Shown: positions 4,939-60,470 of the stretch, piece after piece
How the letters are laid out: the number at the start of each line of letters is the position of its first letter
Numbering within the stretch: position 1 is the stretch's first letter
DNA from: Cymodocea nodosa
Taxonomy: Eukaryota > Streptophyta > Magnoliopsida > Alismatales > Cymodoceaceae
NCBI GenBank assembly: GCA_036874045.1
Contig: CM072336.1
Location: forward strand, 12,953,001 to 13,017,000
Reading direction: 5' to 3'
DNA length: 64,000 bases
Notes under the pieces: generated by a model
The model's input: only the letters and a program-made list of their open reading frames with translations
Told to the model about the DNA's origin: nothing
Databases searched by the model: none
Made by a program: the position numbers and the translations under genes

Positions 4939-5047
4939 ATTGACTTGACTTGAATTGAATTGAATAGAATTGAATTAATATAAGCAATTGTTAGAGGTGT
5001 TTTGTTTTAATAGCTAGAGTTGTATGTTTTCTTTTGTAATTGAGAAT

Positions 5048-9045: not shown

Positions 9046-9228
9046 AGCAGTATTCTGAAGCAACTATCTGTATGTATATATGTTTTTATTTATAGTTAAT
9101 CGTAGAGTTAATTTTTAACTCAACGAACTTAGTCCGTTGAGTTATACCTTAACTCCATGAGGGTGTGCAGTAGTTATGTTAATTTTTGTCTCTACTAAAT
9201 TTTTGTTTGTGTTATACAGAATTGACAA
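9046..9228 (+). promoter_or_regulatory. Spacer before the F-box gene, with dyad and splice-acceptor-like site
   Basis: Contains the dyad AACTCAACG-AACTTAGTC-CGTTGAGTT (about 9118-9145) and, just before the F-box ATG, TTTGTGTTATACAG, a good plant 3' splice site. A GTATGTATAT donor-like sequence lies at about 9070. Both recur in copies C (37560-37761) and E (54245-54432). The F-box may therefore be expressed by splicing. Confidence 0.4.
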
Positions 9229-10368
9229 ATGGAATTGATGCAATTACCATTGGATGCACTAAAGGAAGTACTAAGTAACTTGTTAGCTAAAGATTTTTGC
9301 AGGCTGTGTTGTGTATCAAAGGAAATTAAAGACTGTATTGAAGAAAAATATTTTTAGGGACTACAAGCTGCAAAAATGACTAAGATTAGAGATGGATTCA
9401 TTTGGAGGTCATTTAATCGTAGTTCCAATACCCATGAATATCTGGCTATGGAAGAAACTACTGGAATTCCACCCAATACATTAGAAGGAATAAATCATAT
9501 TATGGGGATAGATGAAGGGTTAATCATATACAGTACGAGACCAAGGTATGCAAGTTTATTATTACCTGATATTTTGATAAGAAATCCTATAATAAGAGAA
9601 GAATGGAATATAGGAAGACCTAATAGATTTGAAGTACCAACTGTGAATTGTGGATCGGCTTTAATTTTTTCTGATAAAAATTCTACAATTCCTGAAAAAT
9701 TATATTATTAGAGACCTACAGGAAATTGGGGTGAAGATTTACGCTTAAGTGTGTATAACTTTCTAAATAGATCTTGGAATGAAAATATTATGATATATCT
9801 AGAACAGAAATCATTAGTTAACCAAACACATGTCATACTTGATGGATATATATATCTAGTCACAGATATATCAATAGCATTTGGATTTGATTTACACATA
9901 GTGAGCATAGACAGTTATAATGAATATATAGAAATTTTACCTATATCGAGAGAAATAGCTAAACCACCATTTGAAGAATTTAATAAAATTCAAATAGGAA
10001 TGTGGTATAATGAAAAAGATGATCCTACTTTATGTCTAATAAGATGGTGGGATGAACTGATGACATTTCAAATATGGATTGTGGAAGACATAAATGAATG
10101 GAAGTGGGAAGAGGAATATATTGAAATAGATGTAGAAATAGAAACTGCTACATTACCCTGGAATCGAAAAGGATCCCTTTTTGCATTTTATATCATTAAT
10201 GGTAATACACTTGTATTTGGAATTTATAATATATTTCATGCCTACAAATTAACAAGGAACAAGAACTGCATTAAAACAGAATTAATAGCAAGAAGAACTA
10301 TGCCTAAAAAGTTTGCTTGGACGGATACATTTATTCCATTTGTTCCTACTTTTCAATCATGTTCTTAA
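9229..10368 (+). pseudogene. F-box protein with F-box-associated-like domain, copy A
   Basis: About 379 codons, the usual size of plant F-box/FBA proteins. Residues 1-40 (MELMQLPLDALKEVLSNLL... LCCVSKEIKDCI) fit the F-box, which binds SKP1 in SCF ubiquitin ligases. The rest shows FBA-like segments: DEGLIIY, ILIRNPI, KLYY.RPTGNWG, NFLNRSW, HVILDGYIYLV, LCLIRWWDEL, GNTLVFGIYN, FIPFVPTFQSC. It lies in sense orientation between the capsid gene and the 3' UTR, as in copies C and E. Probably a captured host gene. Broken. Confidence 0.75.
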
Positions 10369-27393: not shown

Positions 27394-29599
27394 TGTTTGC
27401 GTTTTCCCAGCACTACACTATAAAAACTTGGATTTGTTACTTCTATTTTTACTAAGTTAATTTATCTTTATACTTATTCTTTCTTTTAGAAGTAAACAAA
27501 CAACCTTTAATACAATTTAGATATTAATTCCAATTTGTACGTTAACTGCAAGTGCACAGTGTCTATTGTATTAGTGTGCAAGTACAGGTCGATCTCATAG
27601 GGAATTGTTAAGAATTTGAGAACTATTCGTTTGTTAATAATCAAATGTATATATTCAATAAGCTCTCTATTGAATTACATTTAACTCAACGGACTAACCT
27701 CGTGGACTTAAGTTAACTCCACTAGCATGTCTTTTCTTTTTAATATTGCTATTTACAGAGGAATTTAGCCAACCATTGGGCGATTCCACAGATTGTAAAT
27801 AACATCAATTAATCTCTTTAATGTTAGTTAACATTGGATTTATCATTAAGCAATACTAACATTCAGATAATTCAAATAGTAACCATTAAAATCTTTAAGT
27901 CTTTTGTACGAACCGATTTTAGTAAATTGTAAAACTAAAATAAATATAAAACAATCACACACTGACAAAGATACATTAATCACGATACAACACAAACAAT
28001 ACAACACTCAAATACAACATAAAAACATAGATAAATTGTTTTTGTTTTAATATGAACATGAGAATGGGCGAAAGGTGAAATGTAAAGTAATCTCACTTGA
28101 CAGTAAATACTTCCGACACTACTTGCGACGGGATTACACCACTGAAAATTAAACCACTTACAATTCTGTCTCCTCTCCCTATAGAATCGCGAGTCCAGAA
28201 TTGCAAGATGATCTTCTCTTCAGCATACAGGCATCAACCCGAAGCCAAGTCTAAAAGCTTTACGATCTCCTGAAATATGAGTCGGTGCTTGGTGAAAATG
28301 GCTTCCCTTCCTGCGACGCGATCACTCCTCACAATGGTTGTTAGACATTGTGTTTGGCTCGGAATCAACCCGACATCAGACAAGTATTCTCACAGACCTC
28401 TGTTGGTTGGTGATTATGGTGGTGATGATGGTGATGGTGATGATGATTGTTGGTGTGGAACTTCAGAGAATTGCGACGCTCATCCTCCTCTACACACACT
28501 GTTCGCCCATCAATCACACCTCTTCTTTTTTTCTTCTTTTCTTTTATATTTCTTTAGTAGTAACTGCTTCTACTTGAATGGTCGGTTGGATTTCCTTCAT
28601 ACGTATCAACGGCGATGATTTCTTTCCCTACACGATACGTGTGAATGTGGTTTTTCTCTTCCAACTGTCTGTTCCTGCAACTGCTACAATGGCATATTAG
28701 AAAATAGATTTAACTATAAAACACGTGCAATAAAGAAATAAGCCGCTAACATAATGCATTACCTTAGTCATGTAACTCAACGCATACAATTATGCTAACT
28801 TAATGAGTTAAACATGTGCATCTCACGTGATATACTAAAGCATTTAAATTCAACACGTGCATAAATCGAACGATCCGATACTCAGGTGCATTTCAGATAC
28901 TTATAAACTTAACTATCCGATGCTCAGATGCATTTCGAATAGTTATAGATAACTCACCGATATATAACTTAAGTAAATCTACTAGATCTTGACACGTGTT
29001 AGTAGCAGTTTAATCATAAAATAACATTTCAGAGAGTTACAGAGCTAACTATTCAATGCTCAGATGCATTTCGGATAGTTATAGATAACTCACCGAAAAT
29101 CCACTTAAGTCACTTTCGCAGAACATGACACGTGTCCTCAGGTATTTTATAAATAAAAAGACATTTCGGAGAGTTACATGGCTAACTATCTGATGCCCAG
29201 CTACAATTTCAGATAGTTATAGTTAACTCACCGAAAGTTCACTTAAGTCATGCATTATGGTTTCAACACGTGTACTTTAGGAAATAATAAACTATTCTCT
29301 CAAAACATAACTGTTTGGCAATTTAAACATAACTATCTGATACATGTTCGGTTTGTTAAACATAACTGTCCGAAATATCTGAAAATTCGGATACTTAAGA
29401 ATTTCACAGCTTGCAACTTACCGACAGTTCAGAAATGTACTAAATTAACATTAATTCCCCCAAATTATGCAGATTCTTCAATTAAAGCATATGACAGTGC
29501 AATTATAACATAATGGCTTAATTCTCATATGATAAGCTAAATATTATGCAATTAACCATCGTTTAACAGTTAATAATATACACTTTTTCATTCTAAACA
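27394..29599 (-). repeat. Athila 3' LTR of copy D (long subfamily, minus strand)
   Basis: The plus strand begins TGTTTGCGTTTTCCC and ends TTCTAAACA, about 2206 bp. It has the dyad repeats (about 28850-29260), ACGTGTC sites, a TATA box in reverse and the antisense frame (28277-28618 on plus). The polypurine tract follows at 29600. Confidence 0.9.
28277..28618 (+). other. Open frame antisense to the LTR (113 codons)
   Basis: Counterpart of 3678-4004 and 13083-13424: SRCLVKMASLPATRSLLT, PTSDKYSHRPLLVGDYGG and CWCGTSENCDAHPP. An in-frame product survives at full length here. Origin unknown; possibly a captured host exon. Confidence 0.35.
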
Positions 29600-31321: not shown

Positions 31322-31847
31322 TTAAGAACATGATTGAAAAGTAGGAACAAATGGAATAAATGTATCCGTCCAAGCAAACTTTTTAGGCATAGTTCTTCTT
31401 GCTATTAATTCTGTTTTAATGTAGTTCTTGTTCCTTGTTAATTTGTAAACATGAAATATATTATAAATTCCAAATACATGTGTATTACCATTAATGATAT
31501 GAAATGCAGAAAGGGATCTTTTTTGATTCCAGGGTAATGTAGCAGTTTCTATTTCTACATCTATTTTAATATATTCCTCTTCCCACTTCCATTCATTTAT
31601 GTCTTCCACAATCCATATTTGAAATTTCATCAATTCATCCCACCATCTTATCAGACATAAAGTAGGATCATCTTTTTCATTATACCACATTCCTATTTGA
31701 ATTTTATTAAATTCTTCAGATGGTGGCCTAGCTATTTCTCTCGGTATAAATAATATTTCTATATATTCATTATAACTGTCTATGCTCACTATGTATAAAT
31801 CAGATCCAAATGCTATTGATATATCTGTGACTAGATATATGGAAAAA
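31322..31847 (-). pseudogene. F-box/FBA-like accessory gene, C-terminal part, copy D
   Basis: Minus-strand reading matches the C-terminal half of the protein at 9229-10368: IYLVTDISIAFGSDLY, IEILFIPREIA, LCLIRWWDELMKFQIWIVED, GNTHVFGIYNIF, FIPFVPTFQSCS. It ends abruptly against copy C integrase. Degraded fragment. Confidence 0.75.
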
Positions 31848-32305
31848 GTTGTCATTTACCAGTTGAAATTGAACATAAAGCTTATTGGGCATTAAAAACT
31901 CTGAATACTAATTTAAATCAAGCTACTGAAAATAGGAAAATACAATTAATTGAATTAGAAGAATTTAGGAATGAAGAAGTTTATTCAAAAATTGTAAGAG
32001 AAAAGGAGAAAATGAAGTTTTGGCATGACAGGAAAATTATTCCAAAAACTTTTGAAATAGGACAAGAAGTATATCTTTACATGACTAGACTCCATAACCA
32101 TCCAGGAAAATTAAGATCTAGATGGGCAGGACCTTACATAGTTTGAAATATTTATCCCTATGGAGTTATTGAAATTGAAAATCCTAAAAATTAGAATATA
32201 TTTAAAGTAAATGGACAAAGACTTAGGCCTATTTTGAAAATACCAAAAAGTTCCTTTGGAATTATAAAAGAAGTAAGAGTAAAGGATTACTCGGGTTTCA
32301 CTTAG
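31848..32305 (+). pseudogene. Integrase C-terminal part, copy C
   Basis: Opens YGKSCHLPVEIEHKAYWALK, the standard gypsy integrase 'YGKxCHLPVE' motif, then EKMKFWHDRKIIP, the EVYLYM and HPGKLRSRW motifs, and GPYIV. The C-terminal domain is thought to bind DNA and direct integration. Confidence 0.85.
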
Positions 32306-33024: not shown

Positions 33025-35245
33025 ATGAGGAAGATGACACCTGAGTTCTGGGAAAATGCAGTTGACACGTCAGAATTTCTTAAAGATTTAGAGGATTGGC
33101 ACACGAGGTAGAAAATCAGAAATACAATGAGGGAAAAAAAGCTACAAAAGGTAGAATCTAACCTTTCTACTAGAGGAAAGTGTTAGTAGATTTGGGTATA
33201 CAAATACCTCAGATAATGGAAACTAGAATCAAAGTTGCTACAGAAGTTGCTGTAAGCAGAGAAAAGAATCAGGCTAAATAACGAAGTTGCCCTAGAACTA
33301 ATCCAACATAAGTCCCGAATATGGTTCAAAAGGCGCATTGCTAGTTGTGCAAGGGGAGAAATTAGGCGGGAACAACAAAGGAAGGAAAATGAAGAACAAG
33401 AGGGATTGACTACTGAAAGACCTATTCCTGAGGAACAGCAACCAAGACCTTCAATTCCACAACCAAGGTCGTTAGAAAGAGCAGCAATTTTGGGGCCTTC
33501 TACTAAGGAAGAAAGAAGAGAATTTCAAGAACTAGTTTAAATAGGAAAAGACCAAGGAGAACCAGAAGAATTGGTAGTAGCTATAACACATCCGGTGCAA
33601 AAAGAGGGTTGCAGAAAAGTTGAAAGCCCAATATAAAATCAAAGTGGAACAACATCAAGAAGCTACTGCTAGACCTACTGCAAAAGGAGTTGAAGTTGGT
33701 CCTTCGAGACCAAAAATTATAGAAAAAGTTAAATAGGAAGAGCTAGTACTTGTGGCTCAAAGGCCTACAGAGCCTATTTTTGTAGATTTAATCTCAGAAG
33801 AAGAAGAGGAATACCAGGTAAAATTAATCAAAAGAAGGAAAGGAAAAGAGATAGTGCCTGAATATCAAGAGGAGATTAAATCTGAAATACTAAGATTAGT
33901 AGGGCTTGTAGAGCCAATTTTTGTAAACCTGCTATCCGATTCTAAAGAGGAGTAGGAGGAGCAGTAGCAAGAGCAAAGAGAAGAAGAAAATAGTTTGAAA
34001 CTAGTCTGCAGCCTGTACAAGCAGAAGAAACAGAAATTAGGGCAGAAGCTGATTTGCCCGTAACTCCATCCTAATCTGCCACAAAATTAGAAAGAATCGT
34101 GACATTGCAGATTGGTAGTCAGGAGGAAGAAGAAAAAGAAGAAAATGAACAAGAAGTTGAACAATTACATATGGAAAGAGATGGCTCGATAGATTCCACT
34201 AAAGAGCAAAGAACTCTTCAGCAAATTTTGGATAGTATTCAAGACAGAGTGGAGAGTTCTATCGGCTCACCATCATAGACAAAAGTAGAAGCAAAAATAC
34301 AAGAATCTATGGAGCATTTTCAGCAAGTTCAAGTTCAACATATGGAAGAGGAAGTTCAAGAACAAACCCCTCTAAAGCAACAAATTTACATTCCTGACCC
34401 AACTAAAACAACAGTTCTAAATGAAGTACACTTTTGGAGTTAGGAAGCTTATAATAAATACCAAGAGATAAGGGGTTGTGATATCATTTACAGTAGACCA
34501 GTAAATTGGGACAGAATGCAAGAAATCAAAGATTTATTTGAGTTCCAAGGTCTACTGCAGTTTATTTCTCAAGAAAGAGGACATGCAGTATATGAAAATC
34601 TAGTGCCCTACTTTTATGCAAATTTAAGAGAAGGAGAAGGAGGATTAATTTCTAATGTGGAGGAAGCTGATGTACAGATAACACCAGAGCTTCTCCACAA
34701 CATTCTAGGATTGAAGAATGAAGGACTAGAAATTCTGGAAAGCACAACTACAGTTGAGTGGACAGAACATACCATAAAGGATTGTTTAGCTATCAATCTT
34801 GGTGTGCCATTATTAAATAGACTAAAGCAATTAAATGGTAAAGCACACATGATAGCTAATATTTTGATTAAGAATGTCTACCAACGACAAGGCCATGATA
34901 TAGAACTGAGTCAATTTGTCAAATGAGCCACATATGCAGTTGTGAACAAAATTCAGATAAATTGGTCTGTAGTTTTTATATCCAAGCTGAGAATAGTGAA
35001 GAAGAAATTATTTTATGGAGATTTGATTCCACTACTGATGGTGGACTATATCGATTTCACTAAATGGGCATCCAAAAGGATAAGATCTAGAACCATTTTA
35101 GTGAAAGAGTACAGAAATTATGCTGCTACAGAGATTGCTGAACCTTCTGGAGGAGTTATAGGAGCTGTAGAAAGGATTAACCAATTAGAGAACCAAGTAG
35201 AAAAACTTTAGAAGGAAGTAGATGAACTTAGGAGAAAAGATTAAA
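33025..35245 (+). pseudogene. ORF X, Athila accessory gene between integrase and capsid (longest copy)
   Basis: About 740 codons. N-terminal part starts MRKMTPEFWENAVDT. The middle is rich in Glu/Lys/Gln (PIFVDLISEEEEEYQVKL, KRRKGKEIV) and probably disordered. The C-terminal third is a compact domain (34450-35110): EIKDLFEFQGLLQF, YENLVPYFYANLREG, LGLKNEGLE, AHMIANIL, YQRQGHD, NKIQINWSVVFISKL and KLFYGDL. A terminal coil INQLENQVEKL follows. This domain aligns with ORF Z of the copia elements (22461-24340, 60961-62482). No transmembrane segment is seen. Function unknown. Broken. Confidence 0.75.
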
Positions 35246-36359
35246 TTGTATTGTTCGTCTACTTGTATATATTTGTATGAAAAATATCTGATTGATTGTA
35301 ATGTAAATTATTCATATAAATGAATCTATGTTATTCAGATGTTTTTGTATTAGTATTGGAGAATGATGTAATGGATGAATTATCTTGAATATTATATAAT
35401 TGTTTGAACAAGATGCAAGATTGTTTAAAATATATACAAATTTTATGAATGATAGGATTAAATGCAAGATAATCGGTTAATGTTGAAAATATCTGCATGC
35501 TGTAGAGTAAAATATAAATTCTGCATAATATGAAATGAACTGTAAGTTAAATATTTATATAATGTTCAGATTCAAATGAGTTTAATGACATGTATTTAAC
35601 TTTATTTAAGTTAACAGAATGTAGGAGAGAAAAATGTAGAAGTTAATACGAGGAGTAAGCTTAGAAGTTGCAAAGTGTTAACTCAACGAAGTAAGTTCAT
35701 TGAGTTAACCTTAACTCCACGAGGTTAATAATATAATATAAGGTCACTCCATTGAGTTATCTATAACTCAACGAAGTTAGTCCGTGGAGTTAACAACAAT
35801 AACTGAAGCTTGTCCGTTGAGTTAACTGTAACTCAATGAGGTTAGTTCATGGATTAAGCTAAACAGTTATTCTTTTAGCCACAAACGAAACTTTGTAGAT
35901 CTAGCGGTTATTAAAATTTGAAATTAGAAGTGACACATGTACCCATAAAAATAGGAACCGCACTGCACATTACAAGACATGTTCTTGCAATGAGATTATT
36001 TGCTTTATGGACGTGCATTATAAATATAGAATAGAATGTTATTTATGAGTTACCAGCACTTTTGAAAGAAAAGGAACATCGTTAGGGAACTAGAAGGAGA
36101 AGCAACTGATTCAACTTTATCTGTCAACAACTATTTACTGAGTATAAAGCTTCAGACTGGTATGTAATTAATCTTCTGTTAGTTTACTTTATGTTAAGAG
36201 TTTATGAGCACATGGATTCGTTGTCCTAGCACTAAATGATTAGTAAGAACACATACACAGGATTCTTCAACACAGAGATGTACTGAAGTATTTTCTGAAT
36301 TAGACTTTAACAAAATCCTTAGGGGTGTAGCTAACCTTTCTTTAAAAGATAACGAAGAT
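35246..36359 (+). promoter_or_regulatory. Spacer between ORF X and capsid gene, copy C
   Basis: No gene to about 35690. Then AACTCAACG/CGTTGAGTT-type dyads (35690-35850), a decayed form of the GTTGCAAG/CTTGCAAC palindrome near 35965-35990 and a TATAAATATA box near 36021. A donor-like GGTATGTAATT follows at about 36159. Matches 6847-7859 and 52130-53056. Confidence 0.45.
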
Positions 36360-37553
36360 ATGGTTGCTCCAGTAGAGAAACCATTAGGGGAAATTCTGTA
36401 TCCTAAATTAGTTGATGAACCTTCATGTATTCGATTGCCAAACTTTGAGGGAGATAGGTTTGAACTGAAATCTAATTATATTAGTCAATTGCCACATTTT
36501 CATAGATTAGAAAGAGAGGATGCCTATTATTTCCTTAGAGAATTTAACAAAGTTTGTCAAATGATGAAAATGCCGAACATGAGTATTGATGCTATTAAAC
36601 ATAGATATATCCCTCTTGCTTTAAAAGACACAACTAAGAGATGGTTATATACTCTATCGCCTGATTCAATTTCTACATGGACTGAATTTTACTCTATTTT
36701 TCTAGAAAAATATTATCTAACACATCAAATGATTAAAAAGAAGAAGGAAATATTAATGTGTAGCCAAAAACAAGGAGAATCATTTTGGATATATTTTGAA
36801 AGATTTAAAGATTTACTAACTCAATGTCCACATCATGCAATGAGTAAAGCACAATTAATAGGTATAATTTATGAAGGCATAGATGTTGCAATGAAATCTT
36901 TATTAGAATCTACTTGTCAGAATAGATTTTTAAAACTGTATAGTGAAGAAGCATGGGCATATTTAGAAAACTTTGCAAAAAGAACTGCATAGTGAGAAAA
37001 CTCAACTAAAGCTATTATAGATAAAAGAATATTGCCAAGGGGAATGCATGAAATAGATTCAAGTACTATGCTTGAAGTTAAATTAATTGAATTAACAAAG
37101 AAAATAGAAGAGTTATCATTAAATCAAAAGCTAGTAGAAAAGAATGCAAACGTTAATGATTTAGATATTATTTATGCTAGAAATAAGAAAGATAACTTTG
37201 GAAATTCTTATAACCCTAATTGGAGAAATCACTCGAATTTATCTTGGAGAAACAACAATTTTTAGGGAGGAGAAAATATAAATGACAAAAATATAAGTTA
37301 TGAAGCTTTGATTGAACAAGGATCAAGAATAGAGAAATTAGAAAAGATAATCCAACAATTAAACAATTGTTTGAATCTTGTATTTGGAAATGCTGCAATT
37401 CAAAATGAAAATATAAATAGAAATATACCCCCTAGACAGAAAGAATCAATGGAAGTTAGACCTACTAGAGGATTGCTAATGTAAGCAATACCTAATCCTA
37501 TCAATAGAACTGTTAATGAAATTGATACCTCCTTTAGGAGGGTAGCTGAATGA
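36360..37553 (+). pseudogene. Gag capsid gene placed 3' of integrase, copy C
   Basis: Frame MVAPVEKPLGEILYPK, then the Athila capsid domain with FELKSNYISQLPHF, LEREDAYYFLREFN, ALKDTTKRWLYTLSPDSIST, FLEKYYLTH, GESFWIYFERFKDLLTQCP and GIIYEGIDVAMKSLLE. The tail has LTKKIEELSLNQK and NPNWRNHSNLSWRN. Assembles the virus-like particle in ordinary Athila. Here it is a separate gene between ORF X and the F-box gene. No knuckle in this ORF. It is more open than in copy A but still broken. Confidence 0.85.
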
Positions 37554-37761
37554 AACAGTATAACTGAAGTAACTATGTATAATATAGTAATCAGAAAAAA
37601 AAAAAAATTGTAAGTTTAATTGTAGTTAATAGTATTATAGAGTTATTACTTAACTCAACGAACTTAGTCTGTTGAGTTATGACCTAACTCCACGAGGGTG
37701 TGAAGTAGCTATGTTAATTGTCTCTATTAATTTTTGTTTATGTTATACAGAATCACAACAG
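37554..37761 (+). promoter_or_regulatory. Spacer before F-box gene, copy C
   Basis: Carries AACTCAACG-AACTTAGTC-TGTTGAGTT (about 37651-37677) and a TTTATGTTATACAG acceptor-like site just before the F-box ATG, as in copies A and E. Confidence 0.4.
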
Positions 37762-38699
37762 ATGGAATTGATGAAATTACCATTAGATGCACTAAGGGAA
37801 GTACTGAGTAACCTGTCAATTAAAGATTTGTGCAGATTGTGTTGTGTATCAAAGGAAATCAAAGACTGTGTTAGAGAAAAATATTTTCATGGACTACAAG
37901 CTACAAAAATGACTAAGATTAGAGATGGATTATTATGGAAGTCATTTAATCGTAGTTCAATCTATTATGAATATTTGAATATGGAAGAAACTGCTGGAAT
38001 TCCACCCAATATATTAAAAGGAATAGATCATATTATGGGGATGGATGAAGGATTAATTATATACAGGATTTATGCTTAAGTGTGTATAATTTTCTAAATA
38101 GATCTTGGACTGAAAATACTATGATATATTTAGGACAAAAATCATTAATTAATAACATGCATGTCATACTTGATGGATATATATATCTAGTCACAGATAT
38201 ATCAGTTGCATTTAGATTTGATTTATATATAGTAAGCATAAACAGTTATGATGATTTTATAGAAATATTACCTATATCGAGTGATATAGCTAAACCACTG
38301 ACTTTAGAATACGATCAAATTCAATTGGGAATGTGGTATAATGAATATGATGATGCTACTTTATGTTTGATAAGATGGTGGGATGAATTGAAGAAATTTC
38401 AAATATGGATTATGAAAGACCTAAATGAATGGAAGTAGGAAGAAGAATATATTGAAATAGATGTAGAAATAGAAACAACTACATTATCTTGGAACACAAG
38501 AGGATCCCTTTCTGCATTTCATTTCATTAATGGTAATACACTTATATTTAGTATTGATAACATACTACAAGTTTACAAGCTAAAAAGGAAAGCAAATTGC
38601 ATTAAAATAGAATTAATAGCAAGAAGAATTACGCTTAAAAAGTTTGCATAGACTGACACGTTTATTCCATTTGTTACTACTTTTCAATCATGTTTTTAA
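37762..38699 (+). pseudogene. F-box protein, copy C (shorter)
   Basis: The F-box is the clearest of the set: MELMKLPLDALREVLSNLSI, KDLCRLCCVSKEIKDCV. Then TKIRDGLLWKSFNRSS, MGMDEGLIIY, NFLNRSWTENTMIYLGQKSL, HVILDGYIYLVTDIS, LCLIRWWDELKKFQIWIM. It is shorter than copies A and E in the middle. By family knowledge the F-box recruits SKP1-CUL1; the C-terminal FBA-like part would choose the target. Broken. Confidence 0.75.
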
Positions 38700-40497: not shown

Positions 40498-41615
40498 TGT
40501 TTAAAATGAAAAAGTACATAATATTAACGGTTAAATGATGGTTAATTGCATAATATTTAGCTTATCATATGAGAATTAAGCCATTATGTTACAATTGCAC
40601 TATTATATGCTTTAATGAAAGAATCTTCATAATTTTAGGGAATTAATGTTAATTTAGTATATTTCTGAACTGTCGGTAAATTGCAGGCTGTGAAATTCTT
40701 AAGTATCCAAATTTTCTGTTATTTCAGAGAGTTATGTTTAATGTACTGGATAGTTATGTTTTAAAGAGTATTTTATTATTTCCTAAAGTACACCTGTTGA
40801 AACCATAATTCATGACTTAAGTGGATTTTTGGTAAGTTATTTGTTAACTATCCGAAATGCATCTAGGCATTGGATAGTTAGGTTTGTAAGTGTATGAAAT
40901 ATTTGAACTTATTAAGTTAGAATTATGCACATGTTGAATTTAAACGCTTTTGTATATCACGTGAGATACACATGTTTAACTTGTTAAGTTAGCATAACTG
41001 TACGCGTTGAGTTACATGAATACACACTAAGGTAACACGTTATGTTAGTAGCTTATTTCTTTATTGCATGTGTTTTATAGTTAAATCAACGAAGTAAGTC
41101 CATTGAGTTATCTGTAACTTCACGAACCATTTAATTTCTAATATACCACTATAGCGATTACAGAAACAAGATGTTTGAAGGAAAACCACGAATGCACGTA
41201 TCACACAGGAATTCACACGTGGAAGGGAGAAGAAATCACCATCGTTGATCTGAATGAAGGAAATCCAACCAATCATCTAAAGCAGAATTAGTTACTACTG
41301 AAGAAATATAAAAGAAGAGGAGAAAAAATGAAGAAAGTGTGGTTGGCGATGTGTGGTAGTGTGTGTAAAGGTGGAGGACCGCGCTAACTGCAGGCAGTGT
41401 TGGAAGTTCATTGAAGCATCCACACCATCACCAACAATTCACCAACATCACTAACATTACCATAATCACCAACCATTGGAGGTCTGTGAGGATACTTTCC
41501 TAATGTCGGGTTGATTCTGAGCCAAACACAGTGCCTGACAACTATTGTGAGGAGTGATCGCATCGTGAGAAGGGAAGCCATTTTCACCAAGCATCGACTC
41601 ATATCTCAGGAGAAA
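40498..41615 (+). repeat. Athila 3' LTR of copy C, truncated
   Basis: Starts TGTTTAAAATG after the polypurine tract and follows the Athila LTR as far as the MASLP antisense frame (41408-41602 on minus), then stops. It has the CGCGTTGAGTTACATGAATA block of the long subfamily but lacks most dyad repeats, so its structure is intermediate between the long and short LTRs. Confidence 0.8.
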
Positions 41616-49841: not shown

Positions 49842-51702
49842 TGTTTAGAATGAAAAAGTGCATATTATTAACGGTTAAATGATGGTTAATTGCATAATAT
49901 TTAGCTTATCATATGAGAATTAAGCCATTATGTTATAATTGCACTGTTATATGCTTTAATTGAAGAATCTACTTAATTTTGGGGAATTAATGTTAATTTA
50001 GTACATTTATGAACTGTCGTTAAGTTGCAGGCTGTGAAATTCTTAAGTATCCGAATATGTATCGGATAGTTATGTATAAATTGCCGAACAATTATGTTTA
50101 GAGAGAATATTTTATTTCCAGATGTACACGTGTCAAGATCTGGTATATTTACTTAAGTTATAACTCGTTAAGTTAGCATAACTGTACGCGTTGAGTTACT
50201 ATATTGAACATTAAGGCAACACGTTAGGTTAGCGTTATAAACTTAAGTTGTTATTTTTTTGCACATGTTTTATAGTTAAATCAACGAAGAAAGTTCGTTG
50301 AGTTATCTGTAACTCCACAGACTATATATTTTCTAAAATGCCACTGTAGCAGTTGCAGGAATAGACATTTGGAAGGAAAAACCACGTTTGCACGTATCAT
50401 GTAGGAATTCAATCGCGTAGGGAGAAAGAAATCATCGTCGTTGATCTGAAGGAAGGAAATCCAACCGACCATTCAAGTAGAAGCAGTTACTACGGAAGAA
50501 ATATAAAAGAAAAGAAGAAAAAAAGAAGAAGAGTGTGTGATCGATGGACGACCAGTGTATACAGAGGAGGAGCACCGAGCCTTCTACAGACAGTATCGGC
50601 GATTCTCCGAAGTATCACACCAACCATCGTATCACCACCATAATCACCAATCATCGGAGGTCTGTGAGGATACTTGCCTGATGTCGGGTCGATTCCGAGC
50701 CAAACACAGTGCTTGACAACCACTGTGAGGAGTGATCGCGTCACGGGAAGGGAAGACATTTTCACCAAGCACCGACTCATATTTCAGGAGATTGTAAAGC
50801 TTTTAGCCTTGGCTTCGGGTTGATGCCTGCATGCTGAAGAGGAGATCATCTTGCAATTCTAGACTCGCGATTCTATAGGGAGAGGAGACAGAATTGTAAG
50901 TGGTTTAATTTTCAGTGGTGTAATCGCGTTGCAAGTAGTGTCCGAAGTATTTACTGTCACGTGAGATTACTTTACATTTCACCTTTTGCCCATTTCATCA
51001 AAAACAAAAATACCAAAAACAATTTATCTTTGTTTGTATGTTGTATTTGAGTGTTGTATTGTTTGTGTTGTATCGTGATTAATGTTATGTGTATCAGTTT
51101 TATAATTGTTTTATGTTAGTTTTAATTTTACAGTTTACTGAAATTGGTTCGTACAAAAAAACTTAAAGATTTTAATGGTGACTGTTTGAATCATCTGAAT
51201 GTTAGTATTGCTTAATGATAAATCCAATGTTAACTAGCATTAAAAAGCGTAATGGATGTTATTTACAATCTGTGGAATCGCCCAATGGTTGGCCGAATTC
51301 CTCTGTAAATAGCAGTATTATAAAGAAGAGACAAGCTCGTGGAGTTAACTTAAGTCCACGAGGATAGTCCGTTGAGTTAGCTATAACTCAACGAACTTAG
51401 TCCGTTGAGTTAACTGTAACTCAACGGAGTGCTTATTGAATATAAATTTGAATTGTTCACAATCAATCATTTCTTAAATTCGTCAGCAATTCCCTATGGG
51501 ATCGACCTATACTTGCACATTGATACAATAGACACTGTGCACTTGCAGTTAAAGTACAAATTGGAATTAATATCTAAATTGTATTAAAGGTTGTTTGTTT
51601 ACTTCTAAAAGAAAGAATACGCATAAAGATAAATTAACTAAGTAAAAAAATAGAAGTAACAAATCCAAGTTTTTCTAGTGTTGTGTTGGGAAAACCCAAA
51701 CG
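49842..51702 (+). repeat. Athila copy E 5' LTR (short subfamily, 1861 bp)
   Basis: Begins TGTTTAGAATG and ends CCCAAACG. The dyad-repeat block of the long LTRs is replaced by a shorter stretch. Near 50160-50270 a TTGAGTTACTATATTGAAC block matches the copia LTR rather than the long Athila LTR. TATA box at 50502-50509. The antisense frame (50490-50780) is present in diverged form. Confidence 0.9.
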
Positions 51703-51709
51703 AGTTTTA

Positions 51710-51727
51710 TGGCACCGTTGCCGGGGA
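51710..51727 (+). other. Primer-binding site of copy E, tRNA-Asp type
   Basis: TGGCACCGTTGCCGGGGA, the closest match in the window to the Athila tRNA-Asp site. Followed by GAATT repeats. Confidence 0.85.
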
Positions 51728-52371
51728 ATTGAATTGAATTGAATTGAATCGAAGTGAATTGAATTGAGTTAAATATTAAAAATATATGTAAAACATAAAA
51801 ATAGTTGCGGTTCAACCGATTGGATCCATCGGCATGACCAAAACATTAAAAAAAAAAAAAAAAAAATTTGGTTTTATCGAAACATAGTATCGGTCCAACC
51901 GAAAGAAAAATAAAGAAATAAAAAATATTTAGGTCTGACTGAAGCATAGTATCGGTTAAACCGGAAAAAAAATTGTATATTAATTTTCAGAAAAAATAAT
52001 GGTTTTACCAAAACATAGTATCGGTTCAACCGAAAGAAAAATAAAATAAAAATAAAAAATATTTAGGTCTGACTAAAGCATAGTATCGGTTAAACCTGAA
52101 AAAAAAAAAACACAGAATAGAAAACTTACGAGAGTGAAACTTAGATGTTGCCAAGTGTTAACTCAATGAAGTAAGTCTGTTGAGTTAACCGTAACTCCAC
52201 GAGGTCAGTAATACAATATAAGGTCACTCCGTTGAGTTATCTGTAACTCAACGAAGTTAGTCCGTGGAGTTAGCAACAGTAACCGACTGTGTTCTATTGA
52301 GTAATCTATAACTCAACGAGGTTAGTTCGTGGATTAAGCAGAACAGTTATTCTTTTAACCACAAATGAAAC
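51728..52371 (+). repeat. Linker of copy E: GAATT repeats, TCGGTT-AACCGA tandem blocks, ACTCAACG dyads
   Basis: No gene. About 51800-52110 holds three to four repeats of a unit around ATAGTATCGGTTCAACCGAAAG and TAGGTCTGAC, with poly-A spacers. 52150-52330 holds the AACTCAACGAAG/CGTTGAGTT dyads that precede the capsid gene in all copies. Confidence 0.65.
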
Positions 52372-52851
52372 TTCGTCGGTTTAGCGATTACTAAAATTTG
52401 AAATTAGTAGTGGTACACGTACCCATAAAAACAGGAACCACGATGCACGTTGCAAGCCACGTTCTTGCAACGAGATTTATTCCCTTTATGGATGTGCAGT
52501 ATATATATGAAACAGAATGTTATTTACGAGTTACCAGCACTTTTAAAAGAAAGGAGAAAGTGTTGGAGGAACTGGAAGGAGAAGTAGCTGATTCAACTTC
52601 ATTCGTCGGTTTAGCGATTACTAAAATTTGAAATTAGTAGTGGTACACGTACCCATAAAAACAGGAACCACGATGCACGTTGCAAGCCACGTTCTTGCAA
52701 CGAGATTTATTCACTTTATGGATGTGCAGTATATATATGAAACAGAATGTTATTTACGAGTTACCAGCACTTTTAAAAGAAAGGAGAAAGCGTTGGAGGA
52801 ACTGGAAGGAGAAGCAGCTTATTCAACTTCATCCGACAACAAATATTTATA
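52372..52851 (+). repeat. 240-bp tandem duplication covering the capsid-gene promoter and leader
   Basis: Two head-to-tail units (52372-52611 and 52612-52851) almost identical (a handful of differences). Each contains the GTTGCAAG-n7-CTTGCAAC palindrome, the TATATATA box (GCAGTATATATATGAAAC) and the leader frame MHVASHVLATRF...EELEGEAA. Copies A and C have one unit. So the putative promoter is doubled only in the young copy. Confidence 0.85.
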
Positions 52852-53056
52852 GAATGGAAAGCTTCAGACTGGTATGTAATTAATCTTCTGTTATTTATTT
52901 ATGAGCACATGGACTCGTTCTCTAAGCACTAAACGATTAGTAAGAACACCTACTTAGGAATTTTCATTGCAGAGGAGTACTGAAAAATTTTCTGAACTGA
53001 ACTTTAACGAAATTCTTTGGGGTGTAGCTAACCTTTCTTTAAAAGAGAACGTAGAG
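52852..53056 (+). promoter_or_regulatory. Putative intron before the capsid gene, copy E
   Basis: ACTGGTATGTAATT (donor-like) at about 52869 and TTTTCATTGCAGAGG (acceptor-like) at about 52960-52973 enclose about 100 AT-rich bases. The same pair is recognisable in copies A and C. Splicing is inferred from the consensus only. Confidence 0.4.
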
Positions 53057-54244
53057 ATGGCTGCTCCAGTAGAAAAACCAGTAGGAGAGATTTTGTATCC
53101 TGAATTAATTGATGAACCTTCATGTATTCGATTGCCAAACTTTGAGGGAGATAGGTTTGAACTGAAATCTAATTATATTAGTCAATTGCCACATTTTCAT
53201 GGATTAGAAAGAGAGGATGCCTATTATTTCCTTAGAGAATTTAACGAAGTTTGTCAAATGATGAGAATGCCAAACATGAGTATAGATGCTATTAAACTTA
53301 GATATATCTCTTTTGCTTTAAAAGATACAGCTAAGAGATGGTTATATACTCTGTCGCCTGATTCAATTTCTACATGGACTGAATTTTGCTTTGTTTTTCT
53401 GGAAAAATACTATCCAACACATCAAATGATTAAAAAGAAGAAAGAAATATTAATGTGTAGCCAAAAATAGGGTGAATCATTTTGGAAATATTTTGAAAGA
53501 TTTAAAGATTTACTGACTCAATGTCCACATCATGCAATGAGTAAAGCACAATTAATAGGCATAATTTATGAAGGCATAGATGTTTCAACAAAATCTTTAT
53601 TAGAATCTACTTGTCAAAATGGATTTTTAAAATTATGTAGTGAAGAAGCATGGGCATATTTAGAAAATTTTGCAAAAAGAACTGCATAGTGGGAAAATTC
53701 GGTTGAAGCTATTGCAGATAAAAGAATATTGCCAAGAGGAATGCATGAAATAGATTCCAATACTATGCTTGAGGTGAAATTAAATGAATTAACAAAGAAA
53801 ATAGAAGAGTTATCATTAAATCAAAAGCTAGTAGAAAAGAATACAAACATAAATGACTTAGATATTATTTATGCTAGAAACCAGAGAGATAACTTGGGAA
53901 ATTTTTATAATCCTAATTGGAGAAATCACCTGAATTTATCTTAGAGAAACAACAATTTCCATGGAGGAGAAAATATAAATGAGAAGAACATAAGTTATGA
54001 AGTATTAATTGAACAAGGAGCTAGAATAGAGAAATTAGAAAAGATAATCCAACAAGTAAACAATCGTTTAGAATTTATATTTGGAAATGCTGCAATTCAA
54101 AATCAAAATAGAAATATATCATTTAGACAGAAGGAACTAATGGAAGTTAGACCTACTAGAGGATTGCCAATATAAGCTATTCCTAATCCTGTCAATAGAA
54201 CGGTTAATAAAATTGATACCTCTTCTAGGAGGGCAGCTGAATGA
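53057..54244 (+). pseudogene. Gag capsid gene, copy E
   Basis: MAAPVEKPVGEILYPELIDE, then RLPNFEGDRFELKSNYISQL, LEREDAYYFLREFNEVCQMM, AIKLRYISFALKDTAKRWLY, FVFLEKYYPTHQM, YFERFKDLLTQCPHHAM, EEAWAYLENFAKRTA; tail LNELTKKIEELSLNQK and NPNWRNH. It is the Athila Gag capsid, and copy E is young, so this gene probably mattered for recent movement. A few lesions. Confidence 0.85.
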
Positions 54245-54432
54245 AGTAGCATATCTGAAGGAACTATCTGTATGTATATATGTTTTATTTTAAGTTAATA
54301 GTATCGTAGAGTTAATTTTTAACTCAACGAACTTAGTCCGTTGAGTTATGCCTTAACTCCACGAGGGTGTGCAGTAGTTATGTTAATTTTTGTCTTTGCT
54401 AAATTTTTGTTTTTATTTTACAGAATCAAGAA
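54245..54432 (+). promoter_or_regulatory. Spacer before F-box gene, copy E
   Basis: AACTCAACG-AACTTAGTC-CGTTGAGTT (about 54321-54347), a GTATGTATAT donor-like site at about 54271 and TTTTATTTTACAG acceptor-like site just before the ATG at 54433. Same design as in copies A and C. Confidence 0.4.
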
Positions 54433-55569
54433 ATGGAATTAATGAAATTACTGTTGGATGTACTAAAGGAAATACTAAGTAACTTGTTAGCTAAAGATCT
54501 GTGCAGGCTGTGTTGTGTATCAAAGGAAATTAAAGACTGTATTGAAGAAAAATATTTTTAGGGACTACAAGCTGCAAAAATGACTAAGATTAGAGATGGA
54601 TTCATATGGAGGTCATTTAATCGTAGTTCAAATACCTATGAATATCTGGCTATGGAAGAAACTATTGAAATTCCACCCAATGCATTAGAAGGAATGAGTC
54701 ATATTATGGGGATAGATGAAGGATTAATCATATACAAGACGAGACCAAGGTATGCAAGTTTATCATTACCTGATATTTTGATAAGAAATCCTATAACAGG
54801 AGAAGAATGTAATATAGGAAGACCTAATATATTTGAAGCACCAACTGAAAATTGTGGGTCAGCTTTAATATTTTCTGATAAAAATTCTACAATTCCTGAA
54901 AAATTATATTATTGGAGACCTACAGGAAATTGGGGTGAAGATTTACGCTTAAGTGTGTATAATTTTCTGAACAGATCTTGGAATGAAAATATTATGATAT
55001 ATCTAGGACAGAAATCATTAATTAACCAAACACATGTCATACTTGATGGATATATATATCTAGTCACGGAGATATCATTAGCATATAGATCTGATTTATA
55101 CATAGTGAGCATAGACAGTTATGATGATTATATAGAAATTTTACCTATATCGAGTGAAATAGCTAAACCACCATCTGCAAAATTTAATGAAATTCAAATA
55201 GGAATGTGGTATAATGAAGAAGATGATCCTACTTTATGTCTGATAAGATGGTGGGATGAACTGATGAAATTTCAAATATAGATTATGGAAGACATGAATG
55301 AATGGAAGTGGGAAGAGGAGTATATTGAAATAGATGTAGAAATAGAAACTGCTAAATTACCCTGGAACCAAAAAGGATCCCTTTCTGCATTACATATCAT
55401 TAATGGTAATACACTCGTATTTGGAATTTATAATATATTGCATGTTTACAAATTAAAAAGGAACAAGAACTGCATTAAAACAGAATTAATAGCAAGAACT
55501 ATGCCTAAAAAGTTTGCTTGGACTAATACATTTATTCCATTTGTTTCTACTTTTCAATCATGTTCTTAA
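54433..55569 (+). pseudogene. F-box protein with F-box-associated-like domain, copy E
   Basis: About 378 codons. N-terminal F-box (LLLDVLKEILSNLLAKDLC, then LCCVSKEIKDC). Then TKIRDGFIWRSFNRSSNTYE, DEGLIIYKTRPRYASLSLPD, ILIRNPITGEECNIGRPN (FBA hallmark), EKLYYWRPTGNWGEDL, SVYNFLNRSW, HVILDGYIYLV, YIEILPISSEIAKPP, GMWYNEEDDPTLCLIRWWDE, WKWEEEYIEIDVE and FIPFVSTFQSCS. No transmembrane or zinc motifs. It keeps position and strand in all copies. Likely substrate adaptor of an SCF ubiquitin ligase, host-derived. A few lesions. Confidence 0.8.
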
Positions 55570-57356
55570 GATGTGATTTTGTGTGTTTAATGTTGTGTAT
55601 TCTGCATTTATTTTTAGAAAGAGAGAAAAAAAAGAATTTTGAAGTTTTCATATTCATTTAAAAAAAAAAAAAAAAACAAACGAAACAAAATATCAATCCA
55701 GTTTGTTGGTATCTATTTTGGGAAACCAACTGGCTTGCTTGTGAGCCACCAAAGGCATAGGATCCTGGGTTTCACACAAGACACTGATTTTTTAATATCT
55801 GTTAAATGTTATTTTGTTTTATATTCTGTGTTTATTTGGGAATGAAAAGTTTTTCAGAATTAAAAATCAGAATATGCAGAAAGAGATACAAATGGAACAA
55901 GGTATGTAACCAATTACTTATCCTGAATTTTAAATCAAACAAAACTTTATTCATGCCTGCTACAATTACTGTACTTATTGTCAAATCTTTTACATTGAGG
56001 ACAATGCAAAATGTAGGTATGGGGGGGAGGTAATTAAAGTAACAGCCATGTAAGTTTGTTAATTAAAGGAATTAAAATGGTATTGCAAAGTTTTGAGGAA
56101 ATTGAAAATTTTTATGAACTTGCTGTAACTATCTGATAATTGAGACTGTAAAATTTTTATAAACTGCTTGAATGTTATATTTAGAAGGCTATAGAAGATG
56201 CTATAGAATTTATTATTTATGTAAATCTATATATGGTATCTTATGATTTTCTTGAATTTCATGAGTTTAACAGTTTCACGATTTTAAAATGAAATCAAAA
56301 TATTTAATGCTTAATCAGAAAATTATCTGAAGTCCTGAAGGAGCTGAGATGTGAATTCTAGGTTAAATGAAACACATATGATGAAAGATACATTTACTTT
56401 GACTGATTGAACTTGTAGAATGATTTATGTGTAGATCTTATTAAACTACAGATAAAGTATGAGCTTATTGTTATGGATTCATATTTTTAGTAAATGATAG
56501 AAGTAGGATTATATGAGATTGGTGTTTTACTACATCTGTATTAATGAAATACGTGCATATACAGTATGTGATTAATGCTTTGTTTTGTGCGTGCATTTAT
56601 TTTTAAAAAAAAAAGAAAAAAAAAAAACTTTGAGAGTTTATTGACTTGTTTGATCACAAGCCTTTTCTACTTGAGCAGATAGGTATGTAAGGATTGTTGA
56701 CCCGAAAAACGACTCTGAAAATCTAGCAACCTAAGATCCTGATCAGATCTGGGATTGTTGACTGAAAGCTCGTTACATGGGTACACTAGAAATCTCTTGT
56801 ATGATTCAAGCTTGTCACATTAACTTTTAAAGTACACAAAAAAAAGAAAAAAAGAAAAAGAAGAAAAAAACATATACTATTCTGAAAAGATACAAGTGTT
56901 TTGTGAAATACAGATATCTTATGAATCAAGTATATTTTCTGTTATCTAGAATTGCTGAAATATGAATCTGGAATTGACTTTTGAAGTTGTTTAATGGAAA
57001 TACAATTATTTATTCTACTTGTCTTAATCAGATTGAATTGGATTGTACTTTGATTCGTATGTTGTTGAAATTTCTTCTAGAAAAAACTTATTGGAAAATT
57101 CAGGATTACAGATGATGAAAAGAAGAACAAACGATAATATAATTAACACCTATATGAAGATGATATACTTTGTATGTAATTTACATATATTCTAAATATC
57201 TTTGCAGGTTGATTACTGAAACATACAGAATATATGTTTATGCTGAACAGAAGAAAAAAAACAAAAGGGGAAGAATTAATTCGAGCACTTTTTGAAAGAC
57301 CAATTTATTAGATCTTAGTTTGCTAAGGGACTAGCAAAATTTAGGTATGGGGGAAG
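55570..57356 (+). other. 3' UTR of copy E with internal and terminal polypurine tracts
   Basis: No gene. Conserved block 55703-55786; internal tract AATGTAGGTATGGGGGGGAGG at about 56010-56030; terminal tract ATTTAGGTATGGGGGAAG at about 57339-57356. The shared TAGGTATGGGGG shows the two tracts are copies of one another. Confidence 0.75.
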
Positions 57357-59217
57357 TGTTTAGAATGAAAAAGTGCATATTATTAACTGTTAAATGATGG
57401 TTAATTGCATAATATTTAGCTTATCATATGAGAATTAAGCCATTATGTTATAATTGCACTGTTATATGCTTTAATTGAAGAATCTACTTAATTTTGGGGA
57501 ATTAATGTTAATTTAGTACATTTATGAACTGTCGTTAAGTTGCAGGCTGTGAAATTCTTAAGTATCCGAATATGTATCGGATAGTTATGTTTAAATTGCC
57601 GAACAATTATGTTTAGAGAGAATATTTTATTTCCAGATGTACACGTGTCGAGATCTGATAGATTTACTTAAGTTATAACTCGTTAAGTTAGCATAACTGT
57701 ACGCGTTGAGTTGCTATATTGAACATTAAGGCAACACGTTAGGTTAGCGTTATAAACTTAAGTTGTTATTTTTTTGCACATGTTTTATAGTTAAATCAAT
57801 GAAGAAAGTTCGTTGAGTTATCTGTAACTCTACAGACTATATATTTTCTAAAATGCCACTATAGCGGTTGTAGGAATAGACATTTGGAAGGAAAAACCAC
57901 GTTTGCACGTATCACGTAGGAATTCAATCGCGTAGGGAGAAAGAAATCATCGTCGTTGATCTGAAGGAAGGAAATCCAATCGACCATTCAAGCAGAAGCA
58001 GTTACTACGGAAGAAATATAAAAGAAAAGAAGAAAAAAAGAAGAAGGGTGTGTGATCGATGGACGACCAGTGTATACAGAGGAGGAGCATCGAGCTTTCT
58101 GCAGATAGTATCGGCGATTCTCCGAAGTATCATACCAACCATCGTATCACCACCTTAATCACCAATCATCGGAGGTCTGTGAGGATACTTGCCTGATGTC
58201 GGGTCGATTCCGAGCCAAACACAGTGCCTGACAACCACTGTGAGGAGTGATCGCGTCGCGGGAAGGGAAAACATTTTCACCAAGCACCGACTCATATTTC
58301 AGGAGATAGTAAAGCTTTTAGCCTTGGCTTCGGGTTGATGCCTGTATGCTGAAGAGGAGATCATCTTGCAATTCTGGACTCGCGATTCTATAGGGAGAGG
58401 AGACAGAATTGTAAGTGGTTTAATTTTCAGTGGTGTAATCGCGTTGCAAGTAGTGTCAGAAGTATTTACTGTCAAGTGAGATTACTTTACATTTCACCTT
58501 TGGCCCATTTCATCAAAAACAAAAATACCAAAAACAATTTATCTTTGTTTGTATGTTGTATTTGAGTGTTGTATTGTTTGTGTTGTATCGTGATTAATGT
58601 TATGTGTATCAGTTTTATGATTGTTTTATGTTAGTTTTAATTTTACAGTTTACTGAAATTGGTTCGTACAAAAAAACTTAAAGATTTTAATGGTGACTGT
58701 TTGAATCATCTGAATGTTAGTATTGCTTAATGATAAATCCAATGTTAACTAGCATTAAAAAGCTTAATCGATGTTATTTACAATTTGTGGAATCACCCAA
58801 TGGTTTGCCGAATTCCTGTGTAAATAGCAGTATTATAAAGAAGAGACAGGCTCATGGAGTTAACTTAAGTCCACGAGGATAGTCCGTTGAGTTAGCCATA
58901 ACTCAACGAACTTAGTCCGTTGAGTTAACTGTAACTCAATGGAGTGCTTATTGAATATAAATTTGAATTGTTCACAATCAATCATTTCTTAAATTTGTCA
59001 GCAATTCCCTGTGAGATCGACCTGTACTTGCACACTGATACAATAGACACTGTGCACTTGTAGTTAAAGTACAAATTGGAATTAATATCTAAATTGTATT
59101 AAAGGTTGTTTGTTTACTTCTAAAAGAAAGAATACGCATAAAGATAAATTAACTAAGTAAAAAAATAGAAGTAACAAATCCATGTTTTTCTAGTGTAGTG
59201 CTGGGAAAACCCAAACA
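57357..59217 (+). repeat. Athila copy E 3' LTR (1861 bp)
   Basis: Same length as 49842-51702. By eye about 12 differences in the first 560 bases and a similar rate further on. Ends CCCAAACA, after which copia 3 integrase resumes. Confidence 0.9.
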
Positions 59218-60470
59218 AGCACCATGTCAAAATGGTGTTGTTGAGAGAAAGAATAGATCACTTCAAGAAATGGCCAGAACTATGTTGAATGAACATAACT
59301 TACCTCAAAATCTTTGGGTTGAAGCAGTAAATACAGCTTGTTATGTTATTAACAGAAGTCATTTATGACCTCATGTTAATAAAACTCCTTTTGAAATTAT
59401 GTTTAATAGGGTTCCAAAAATTTCCTATATGAAACCATTTGGCTGCAAGTGTTTTGTTCTTAATACTAAGGATAAAAGGGATAAATTTCAAGCCAAATTA
59501 GATGAAGGAATTTTTGTAGGTTACTCTACTAGAAGTAAAGCCTATAGAGTATATAACAAGACTTCTAGGACTATTGAAGAAACCCTCCATGTAAGCTTCA
59601 ATGAAAATTCTTTTAGAGAATCTCAATCTAATGTTGATAATGATGATTTGATCAATCTTCCAAAAGAGTTAGAGATCAATAAAGAGATTGATGATTTATT
59701 TGAGAAAATAAAAAATATGAACTTAAATGATCAAACTAATGATGAAAGTGATGTACCTTCAGATGTTGATGAGAATATTGAGGAAAATGAGAGAAATTGA
59801 CGTTATTCTTCATCACATCCCATTACTCAAGTCATTGGTAATATTAATGAGGGAGTTAAAACTAGAGCTTCAGTAAATTTAATTAGTATGTGTATGTTTG
59901 TTTCTATGGTGGAACCAAGGAATATACAAGAAGCATTATCTGATGAAAATTGGATAGTGGCAATGCAAGAAGAACTAAATCAATTCATTAGACATGATGT
60001 ATGGGAATTAGTATCTCCTCCAGAAAATCAGTCCATAATAGGTACAAAGTAGATCTTTAGAAACAAAACTAGTGAAACTGGTCAAGTTATAAGGAATAAA
60101 GTTAGATTAGTTGCACAAGGGTATACATAGAAAGAAGGATTAGATTATGATGAAACATTTGCTCCTATGGCTAGGTTAGAAAGTATTAGAATATTATTGG
60201 CCTATGCTTGTTATATGGATTTTAAATTATATCAAGTGGATGTAAAGAGTGCATTTCTAAATGGTTTAATTAATGAAGAAGTCTATGTAAAACAACCACC
60301 TGGATTTGAAGATATTAAAAATCATGACTTTGTGTATAAATTGAAGAAAGCCTTATACGGTTTGAAGCAAGCACCTAGATCATGGTATTAAAGATTGTTT
60401 ACTTTTTTAATAGAAAAAGACTATATCATGGGAAAAGTGGATGATACTCTATTTATCGAAAATAGATTAA
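59218..60470 (+). pseudogene. copia 3 integrase tail and reverse transcriptase, first part
   Basis: Integrase: QNGVVERKNRSLQEMARTM, LPQNLWVEAVNTACYVINRS, FGCKCFVLNTKDKRDKF, EGIFVGYSTRSKAYRVYN. RT (RVT_2): NWIVAMQEELNQFIRHDVWE, NKVRLVAQGYT, DYDETFAPMARLESIRILLA, YQVDVKSAFLNGLINEEVYV, QPPGFED, KALYGLKQAPRSWY. The catalytic YVDD region and RNase H are not present. Broken. Confidence 0.9.

Follow-up and report, generated by a model that had tools for sequence, protein, structure and literature searches.

One family of Athila-like Ty3/gypsy LTR retrotransposons carries an F-box/FBA-type gene as a fixed resident, as supported by its recurrence at the same place in element copies across a genome of 374.6 Mb in 28 contigs. 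Silencing keeps plant LTR retrotransposons down, and genes that might help them to resist it are seldom encountered. A resident F-box gene that is constrained between lineages is a concrete candidate for counter-defence, with a testable partner in Skp1 and a target that should be findable. Two features of the family, a capsid gene that appears to be spliced out as an intron and the existence of pol-bearing relatives, are new beyond the sequence-only reading of this DNA.

The F-box gene and its element family

Self-comparison of the window, the whole stretch of 64,000 nt that was analysed, revealed nested elements, with copies A, B and C on the plus strand and copies D and E, both truncated, on the minus strand. 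The F-box genes are found at 9229-10368 (copy A), 37762-38699 (copy C) and 54433-55569 (copy B) on the plus strand, and at 1921-2657 (copy E) and 31322-31855 (copy D) on the minus strand; since the latter two reside within minus strand elements, all five genes read in the sense of their element, as the sequence-only reading had claimed for five copies of the same gene. Its further claim, that the gene sits behind the capsid gene, holds in the three plus strand copies and does not extend to the two minus strand copies, which are truncated inside the F-box gene. None of the five F-box genes is intact.

Copy B (49842-59219, plus strand) lies inserted in a copia integrase gene, and a target-site duplication is not clear at its flanks. 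The 5' LTR (49842-51704) is 97.3% identical to the 3' LTR (57357-59219), with a K2P distance of 0.028. Five bases past the 5' LTR is a primer-binding site (51710-51727) that starts with TGG and that by eye is putatively of tRNA-Asp type. The putative intron holding the capsid (gag) gene extends over 52872-54423, with the donor ACTG/GTATGT and the acceptor TTTTACAG/AATC (the slash marks the junction), and the broken capsid gene inside it (52958-54290, end approximate) is the same gene as that at 36360-36992 in copy C. The F-box gene (54433-55569) comprises 379 codons including stops, which fall at codons 43 and 283, and it is followed by a 3' UTR (55570-57356) with a short purine-rich tract at its end, before the LTR.

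In copy A, also on the plus strand, the F-box gene (9229-10368) has stops at codons 43 and 161 and is preceded by a capsid-bearing intron at 7675-9219. Its LTRs (2658 to about 4913 and 12119 to about 14318) differ by a K2P distance of 0.059, and the direct repeat continues to 5372 and 14787, respectively. This repeat is thus ~400 bases longer than the LTR and at both ends includes the primer site and the internal start, a pattern suggestive of a cut through a tandem arrangement. At an assumed rate of 1.3e-8 per site and year, the LTR distances correspond to about 1.1 million years for copy B and about 2.3 million years for copy A.

The F-box gene of copy C (37762-38699, plus strand) is shortened and frame-shifted past about codon 105. 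Its capsid-bearing intron (36160-37750) contains an ORF at 36360-36992 that matches Retrotrans_gag (PF03732, E 4.9e-17), which bears out the capsid call made earlier. Upstream of the capsid gene are a Transposase_32-like ORF (34444-34923; E 4.3e-5, under the curated cut-off) and an integrase C-terminal remnant (31835-32146), recognized by eye and without a match in Pfam, and a partial 3' LTR is found at 40498-41613, all on the plus strand. On the minus strand, copy D has the truncated F-box gene (31322-31855) and a 3' LTR (27394-29599), while the F-box gene of copy E (1921-2657) ends where copy A starts. An Rfam search over the 64-kb window at gathering scores gave no match.

A protein search of the genome with the C-terminal half of copy A as query gave 5691 candidate places, which are search candidates and not a copy number; 150 of them, copy A included, were scored, and all 150 have E<=4.3e-119. 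In 40 places of 5 kb each, fetched from elsewhere in the genome, the whole copy A F-box gene aligns in 36, a capsid match is present in 33 and an LTR-start match in 38. This recurrence indicates that the place of the F-box gene in the element is not due to chance, and the earlier proposal that the gene resides in an LTR family is upheld. Another 20 shorter pieces were added, 18 of which are full length. Only 11 of the 54 full-length copies fetched are open throughout and 43 are broken, in a sample biased by the choice of places as the best matches to copy A. In addition, a genome-wide run of an F-box HMM scored 150 of 4219 candidates. Of the ten best places, nine belong to this element and the tenth, L045, is cellular, and four further places, opened as possible cellular genes, all proved to be element copies, so that 13 of the 14 places opened belong to the element.

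The encoded protein has 378-379 residues in open copies. Its N-terminal F-box (PF00646) scores above the cut-off in all three window pieces that hold the domain (37762-38079, E 1.8e-11; 9229-9354, E 3.9e-9; 54433-54558, E 1.7e-7, the last spanning codons 1-42 of copy B) and in 8/8 open copies scanned. The C-terminal part matches F_box_assoc_1 (TIGR01640) at E 2.6e-7 and 6.6e-5 in both copies scanned, and FBA_1 at E 0.002-0.044 in three of eight open copies, in each case below the curated cut-off. The predicted layout, an F-box followed by an FBA-like part, is that of a plant SCF adaptor; the sequence-only reading of an F-box/FBA adaptor is accordingly confirmed by profile search for the F-box, with the FBA part matching at sub-threshold level. 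No homologues of the C-terminal piece or of the L009 protein were found in the protein collection, and a PDB search returned no relatives or spurious matches only. An AlphaFold2 model of one window piece, with the four other window pieces as alignment, reached a pLDDT of 30 and was discarded.

In-frame stops in the 59 aligned copies are C-to-T or G-to-A changes in 57 of 79 cases, as expected of methylated, silenced copies. Stops recur at F-box gene codons 43, 59, 167, 193 and 311 (in 5, 5, 8, 5 and 7 copies, respectively), again as C-to-T or G-to-A changes, and probably reflect repeated deamination of methylated sites.

A capsid gene inside a putative intron

In the capsid-bearing copies, GTATGTAATTAATC or a similar sequence comes directly after the leader, and the GT is kept in 20/20 places found by pattern and also in copy C. 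At the other end, unspliced copies carry the 3' splice site TTATACAG/AATCRACARATG, or a variant, just before the F-box ATG, and the acceptor AG is retained in 52 of 59 of them (37/42 in the first set and 15/17 in the second). In six further copies (L025, L027, L039, L050, L069 and L072) the leader, ending in GGAAAGCTTCARACTG or a variant, abuts AATC directly and the capsid gene is gone. The capsid gene is therefore absent from donor to acceptor in 6 of the 65 readable junctions, three of which lie in the window (one of 66, L062, is without the start); five of the six are exact at the join and L072 is degraded. These junctions indicate that the capsid gene lies in a GT..AG intron, the removal of which by splicing would join the leader to the F-box gene.

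The spliced copies are not each other's nearest kin. In a tree of the F-box gene plus 3' UTR with 42 rows, the first four spliced copies need four changes, at least three of which are forced by starred branches, and a single clade of these four copies is rejected (AU p 2.8e-67). Similarly, six changes, two of them forced by starred branches, are required for all six spliced copies when 59 F-boxes are placed in a tree (p 2.6e-5). Because the gag-less copies are scattered over the tree, spliced RNA was probably made, packaged and reverse-transcribed several times, and these copies would form a natural record of that process. The Transposase_32 region is retained upstream in the four spliced copies of the first set, which counts against the use of spliced RNA for the F-box protein, as ribosomes would have to reach the F-box gene on a long RNA. 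On an RNA of the copy B type, splicing would place the F-box gene beside the leader.

The leader exon contains an ATG just before the donor, at 7657-7674 in copy A and 52854-52871 in copy B. In the spliced copies L025, L027, L039 and L050 this ATG is, by eye, in frame with the F-box gene and would add nine residues, and in 20 unspliced places it opens a nine-codon ORF (seven codons in one), the commonest form of which is MESFRLVCN (13/20); copy C and L069 are without it. The idea that copy B as a whole stems from a multiply spliced RNA was rejected, as no clean GT..AG marks its other joins, which fall in AT-rich repeats.

Pol-bearing relatives were recognized in L051, L052 and L053, the 9-kb stretches upstream of L027, L039 and L026, respectively. 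L053 encodes RVT_1, RT_RNaseH and Integrase_H2C2 after a weak Asp_protease_2 match (E 0.0059, below the cut-off), L052 has a reverse transcriptase and an integrase core (rve) below the cut-off, and L051 has an integrase (rve). The order in L053 fits the Ty3-type arrangement PR-RT-RNaseH-INT, with all domains detected by Pfam in no single copy. From its 5' end, L053 shows an LTR, a zinc-knuckle ORF, protease-RT-RNaseH-integrase and a region that matches the Transposase_32-like ORF of copy C, and the capsid and F-box genes follow in the adjoining L026. The zinc-knuckle ORF (1889-2359 of L053) has a CX2CX4HX4C pattern by eye, starts within about 100 bases of the LTR and gives no Pfam match; the 5' end of copy A agrees, with a broken zinc-knuckle-like ORF at window positions 4960-5458. 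The capsid gene is thus not placed ahead of pol, as it is in Athila/Calypso elements, at either of the two 5' ends examined (L053 and copy A), and gag seems to have been split, with the capsid shifted to the 3' part. Copy B, which is without pol and without the Transposase_32 region and has joins in AT-rich repeats, looks like a deletion form of these pol-bearing relatives.

Selection on the F-box gene and its origin

Raw pairwise dN/dS ratios of the F-box gene are 0.40-0.65 among the window copies and 0.29-0.55 in most comparisons with C, E, L041, L043 or L046, L050 compared with the main group gives 0.50-0.79, and comparisons with L042/L048 give 0.18-0.26. In raw Nei-Gojobori counts wrong frames often fall below 1 as well, and close-pair ratios of 0.5-0.8 were not counted as constraint. 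The ratios were calibrated with the exchange spectrum of the UTR at codons with one difference, comparing each lineage with the main group of six copies. The calibrated ratio of replacement changes to neutral is 0.34 (0.21-0.54) for L048, 0.55 (0.40-0.77) for L041, 0.53 (0.36-0.78) for L043, 0.51 (0.35-0.75) for L046, 0.53 (0.34-0.84) for copy C, 0.58 (0.32-1.03) for copy E and 0.84 (0.52-1.37) for L050, that is, 0.34-0.58 of neutral in six of the seven lineages, and wrong frames give 0.65-1.76. The lowest of these controls, 0.65 (0.41-1.05), belongs to copy C and is near its in-frame value, so this control is not clean. Among the other lineages, five pairs have ratios of 0.35-0.56 in the true frame and of 0.93-2.25 in wrong frames. 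These ratios below neutral point to constraint on the F-box gene during the divergence of the deeper lineages.

Within the young main group, neither the calibrated ratio, 0.72 (0.41-1.29), nor the variant-frequency test shows constraint. In 38 copies the latter gives 0.97 for private variants and 0.49 and 0.64 for shared ones, with one UTR control frame off in the opposite way at 1.63 (1.15-2.31). In 59 copies with a pooled spectrum the values are 0.75 and 0.78 (0.56-1.08), and wrong frames give 0.74 and 0.83 for shared variants. The F-box domain by itself stands at 1.08 (0.45-2.60) in the young group. The comparison of silent with replacement changes that the sequence-only reading had proposed as a check on selection thus comes out mostly below neutral for pairs from different lineages, with no constraint visible within the young group. 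Against L041, L042, L043 and L048, uncalibrated pN/pS is 0.17-0.38 in the F-box domain and 0.37-0.53 in codons 45-183. If an SCF adaptor had to follow a changing target, its F-box would be expected to stay conserved and its C-terminal part to evolve faster, as here.

The F-box gene was probably taken up once, before the present lineages split. L042 and L048 form a deep F-box lineage with ~57% protein identity to L009 over 184 residues, beyond which both share other sequence. The capsid-to-F-box spacing of L042 and the letters of L042/L048 at the acceptor match those of the other copies, which favours a single capture. The F-box dS of L042/L048 to the main group, C and L043 (1.03-1.36) is about twice the capsid dS (0.53-0.60), and to L041 it is 0.80-0.82; the twofold difference may mean that this lineage recombined or had a history of its own. 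A cellular donor was not found among the 14 F-box HMM places opened in the genome, and the one cellular F-box gene among them, L045, has no blast match to the element. The FBA_1 model (PF07734) had no match among 31 candidates over the genome, and controls were equally unmatched, so this result has no bearing on the donor.

Several other explanations of these observations have to be weighed. The F-box gene might be a passenger that was transduplicated once and then copied along unused, which would fit the 43 broken copies among the 54 fetched, the young group without visible constraint and the near-neutral private variants (0.97 in 38 copies). We consider this unlikely, since constraint is seen between lineages, where most wrong-frame controls come out at about 1 or higher, the acceptor is conserved even in the deep lineage L042/L048, and any retrotransposon gene can be expected to decay in individual copies once they have inserted. 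Decidedly improbable, in our judgement, is the capture of several related host F-box genes, the constraint then being selection in the host before capture. The numerous F-box genes of plants and the doubled F-box dS of L042/L048 are in its favour; however, the matching spacing of L042 and the matching acceptor letters of L042/L048 would not be expected if genes had been captured repeatedly at one base, and L041, L043 and L046 are similarly constrained. As for the gag-less copies, they could have arisen by deletion or template switching at the RNA or cDNA stage instead of from spliced RNA, and copy B, with its deletion-like joins in AT-rich repeats, demonstrates that such events occur in the family. 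Five of the six joins, however, are base-identical and fall at GT and AG in copies that are not nearest kin, which makes this origin very improbable.

Proposed function and relation to known systems

The explanation as a whole, an Athila-kind family with a resident F-box gene, a capsid intron and SCF-mediated destruction of a host or element factor, appears to us reasonably probable. Unspliced RNA would serve for the capsid and spliced RNA for the F-box protein, and the capsid intron, if true, would let one RNA serve two proteins. The F-box protein would dock on Skp1 via its F-box, and its C-terminal domain would recruit a substrate for destruction by the SCF ubiquitin ligase, either a host factor restricting the element or one of the element's own proteins. 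The likeliest function, in our view, would be the destruction of a host defence factor via the SCF ligase, and a silencing or chromatin factor would be a first guess at the target. P0 and similar F-box-like proteins of viruses are reported to act on ARGONAUTE1 (PMC6593998), and FBW2, an F-box protein of the plants themselves, targets AGO1 (PMC9035678), which makes a silencing factor a sensible choice.

A role in the element's own cycle, for example the removal of the capsid or of a pol protein with the effect of limiting copy number, is the main alternative to a host target. It agrees with splicing that would make capsid and F-box RNA mutually exclusive, in the manner of a switch, and nothing specific speaks against it; self-limitation would nevertheless be expected under weaker selection than counter-defence, and we regard such a role as somewhat unlikely. 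Returning to a host target, a more specific version of that reading would be that the element has made a host ubiquitin-ligase adaptor its own, as a gene dedicated to counter-defence at the place of the envelope gene, and that retention or removal of the capsid intron sets packaging against the destruction of a silencing or chromatin factor. We put this forward tentatively, as possible rather than probable.

The sequence features suggest that the family is Athila-like Ty3/gypsy, of the plant endogenous retrovirus lineage. It resembles the Athila/Calypso elements, as described in the Diaspora paper (PMC1142308), in a primer-binding site five bases past the LTR, putatively of tRNA-Asp type by eye, in the Ty3-type pol pieces of L051-L053 and in an extra 3' gene at the place where those elements have an envelope-like gene. 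It differs in that the 3' gene is an F-box gene and that the capsid gene, within its putative intron, follows INT in the pol-bearing copies examined; the search for an envelope-like gene in this family covered Pfam scans. Copy B, with two LTRs, a capsid gene and no pol, is reminiscent of the non-autonomous TR-GAG elements (PMC8704663), but gag is not the sole coding gene in copy B, since the F-box gene is there as well, and copy B seems to have arisen by deletion from a pol-bearing form.

Among the open-licence papers of PubMed Central, judged by titles, parts of abstracts and some passages, none was found to describe an LTR element that carries an F-box gene as a resident. A parasite-encoded F-box domain is also known from viruses, in polerovirus P0 and further F-box-like proteins that bind SKP1 or have ARGONAUTE1 as their object (PMC6593998, PMC6784205, PMC3588083). 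The present protein, in contrast, is a plant-type F-box/FBA protein in an LTR retrotransposon, and the likeness to P0 is one of domain. In maize, Bs1 represents a host gene copied by an LTR retrotransposon. The LTR-retrogenes of Thlaspi arvense are reported to include F-box genes (PMC8764390), and both cases share with ours a host gene moved by, or within, LTR elements. Those are described as single host genes, whereas the F-box gene has its fixed place throughout a large family of elements and is constrained between the lineages of that family.
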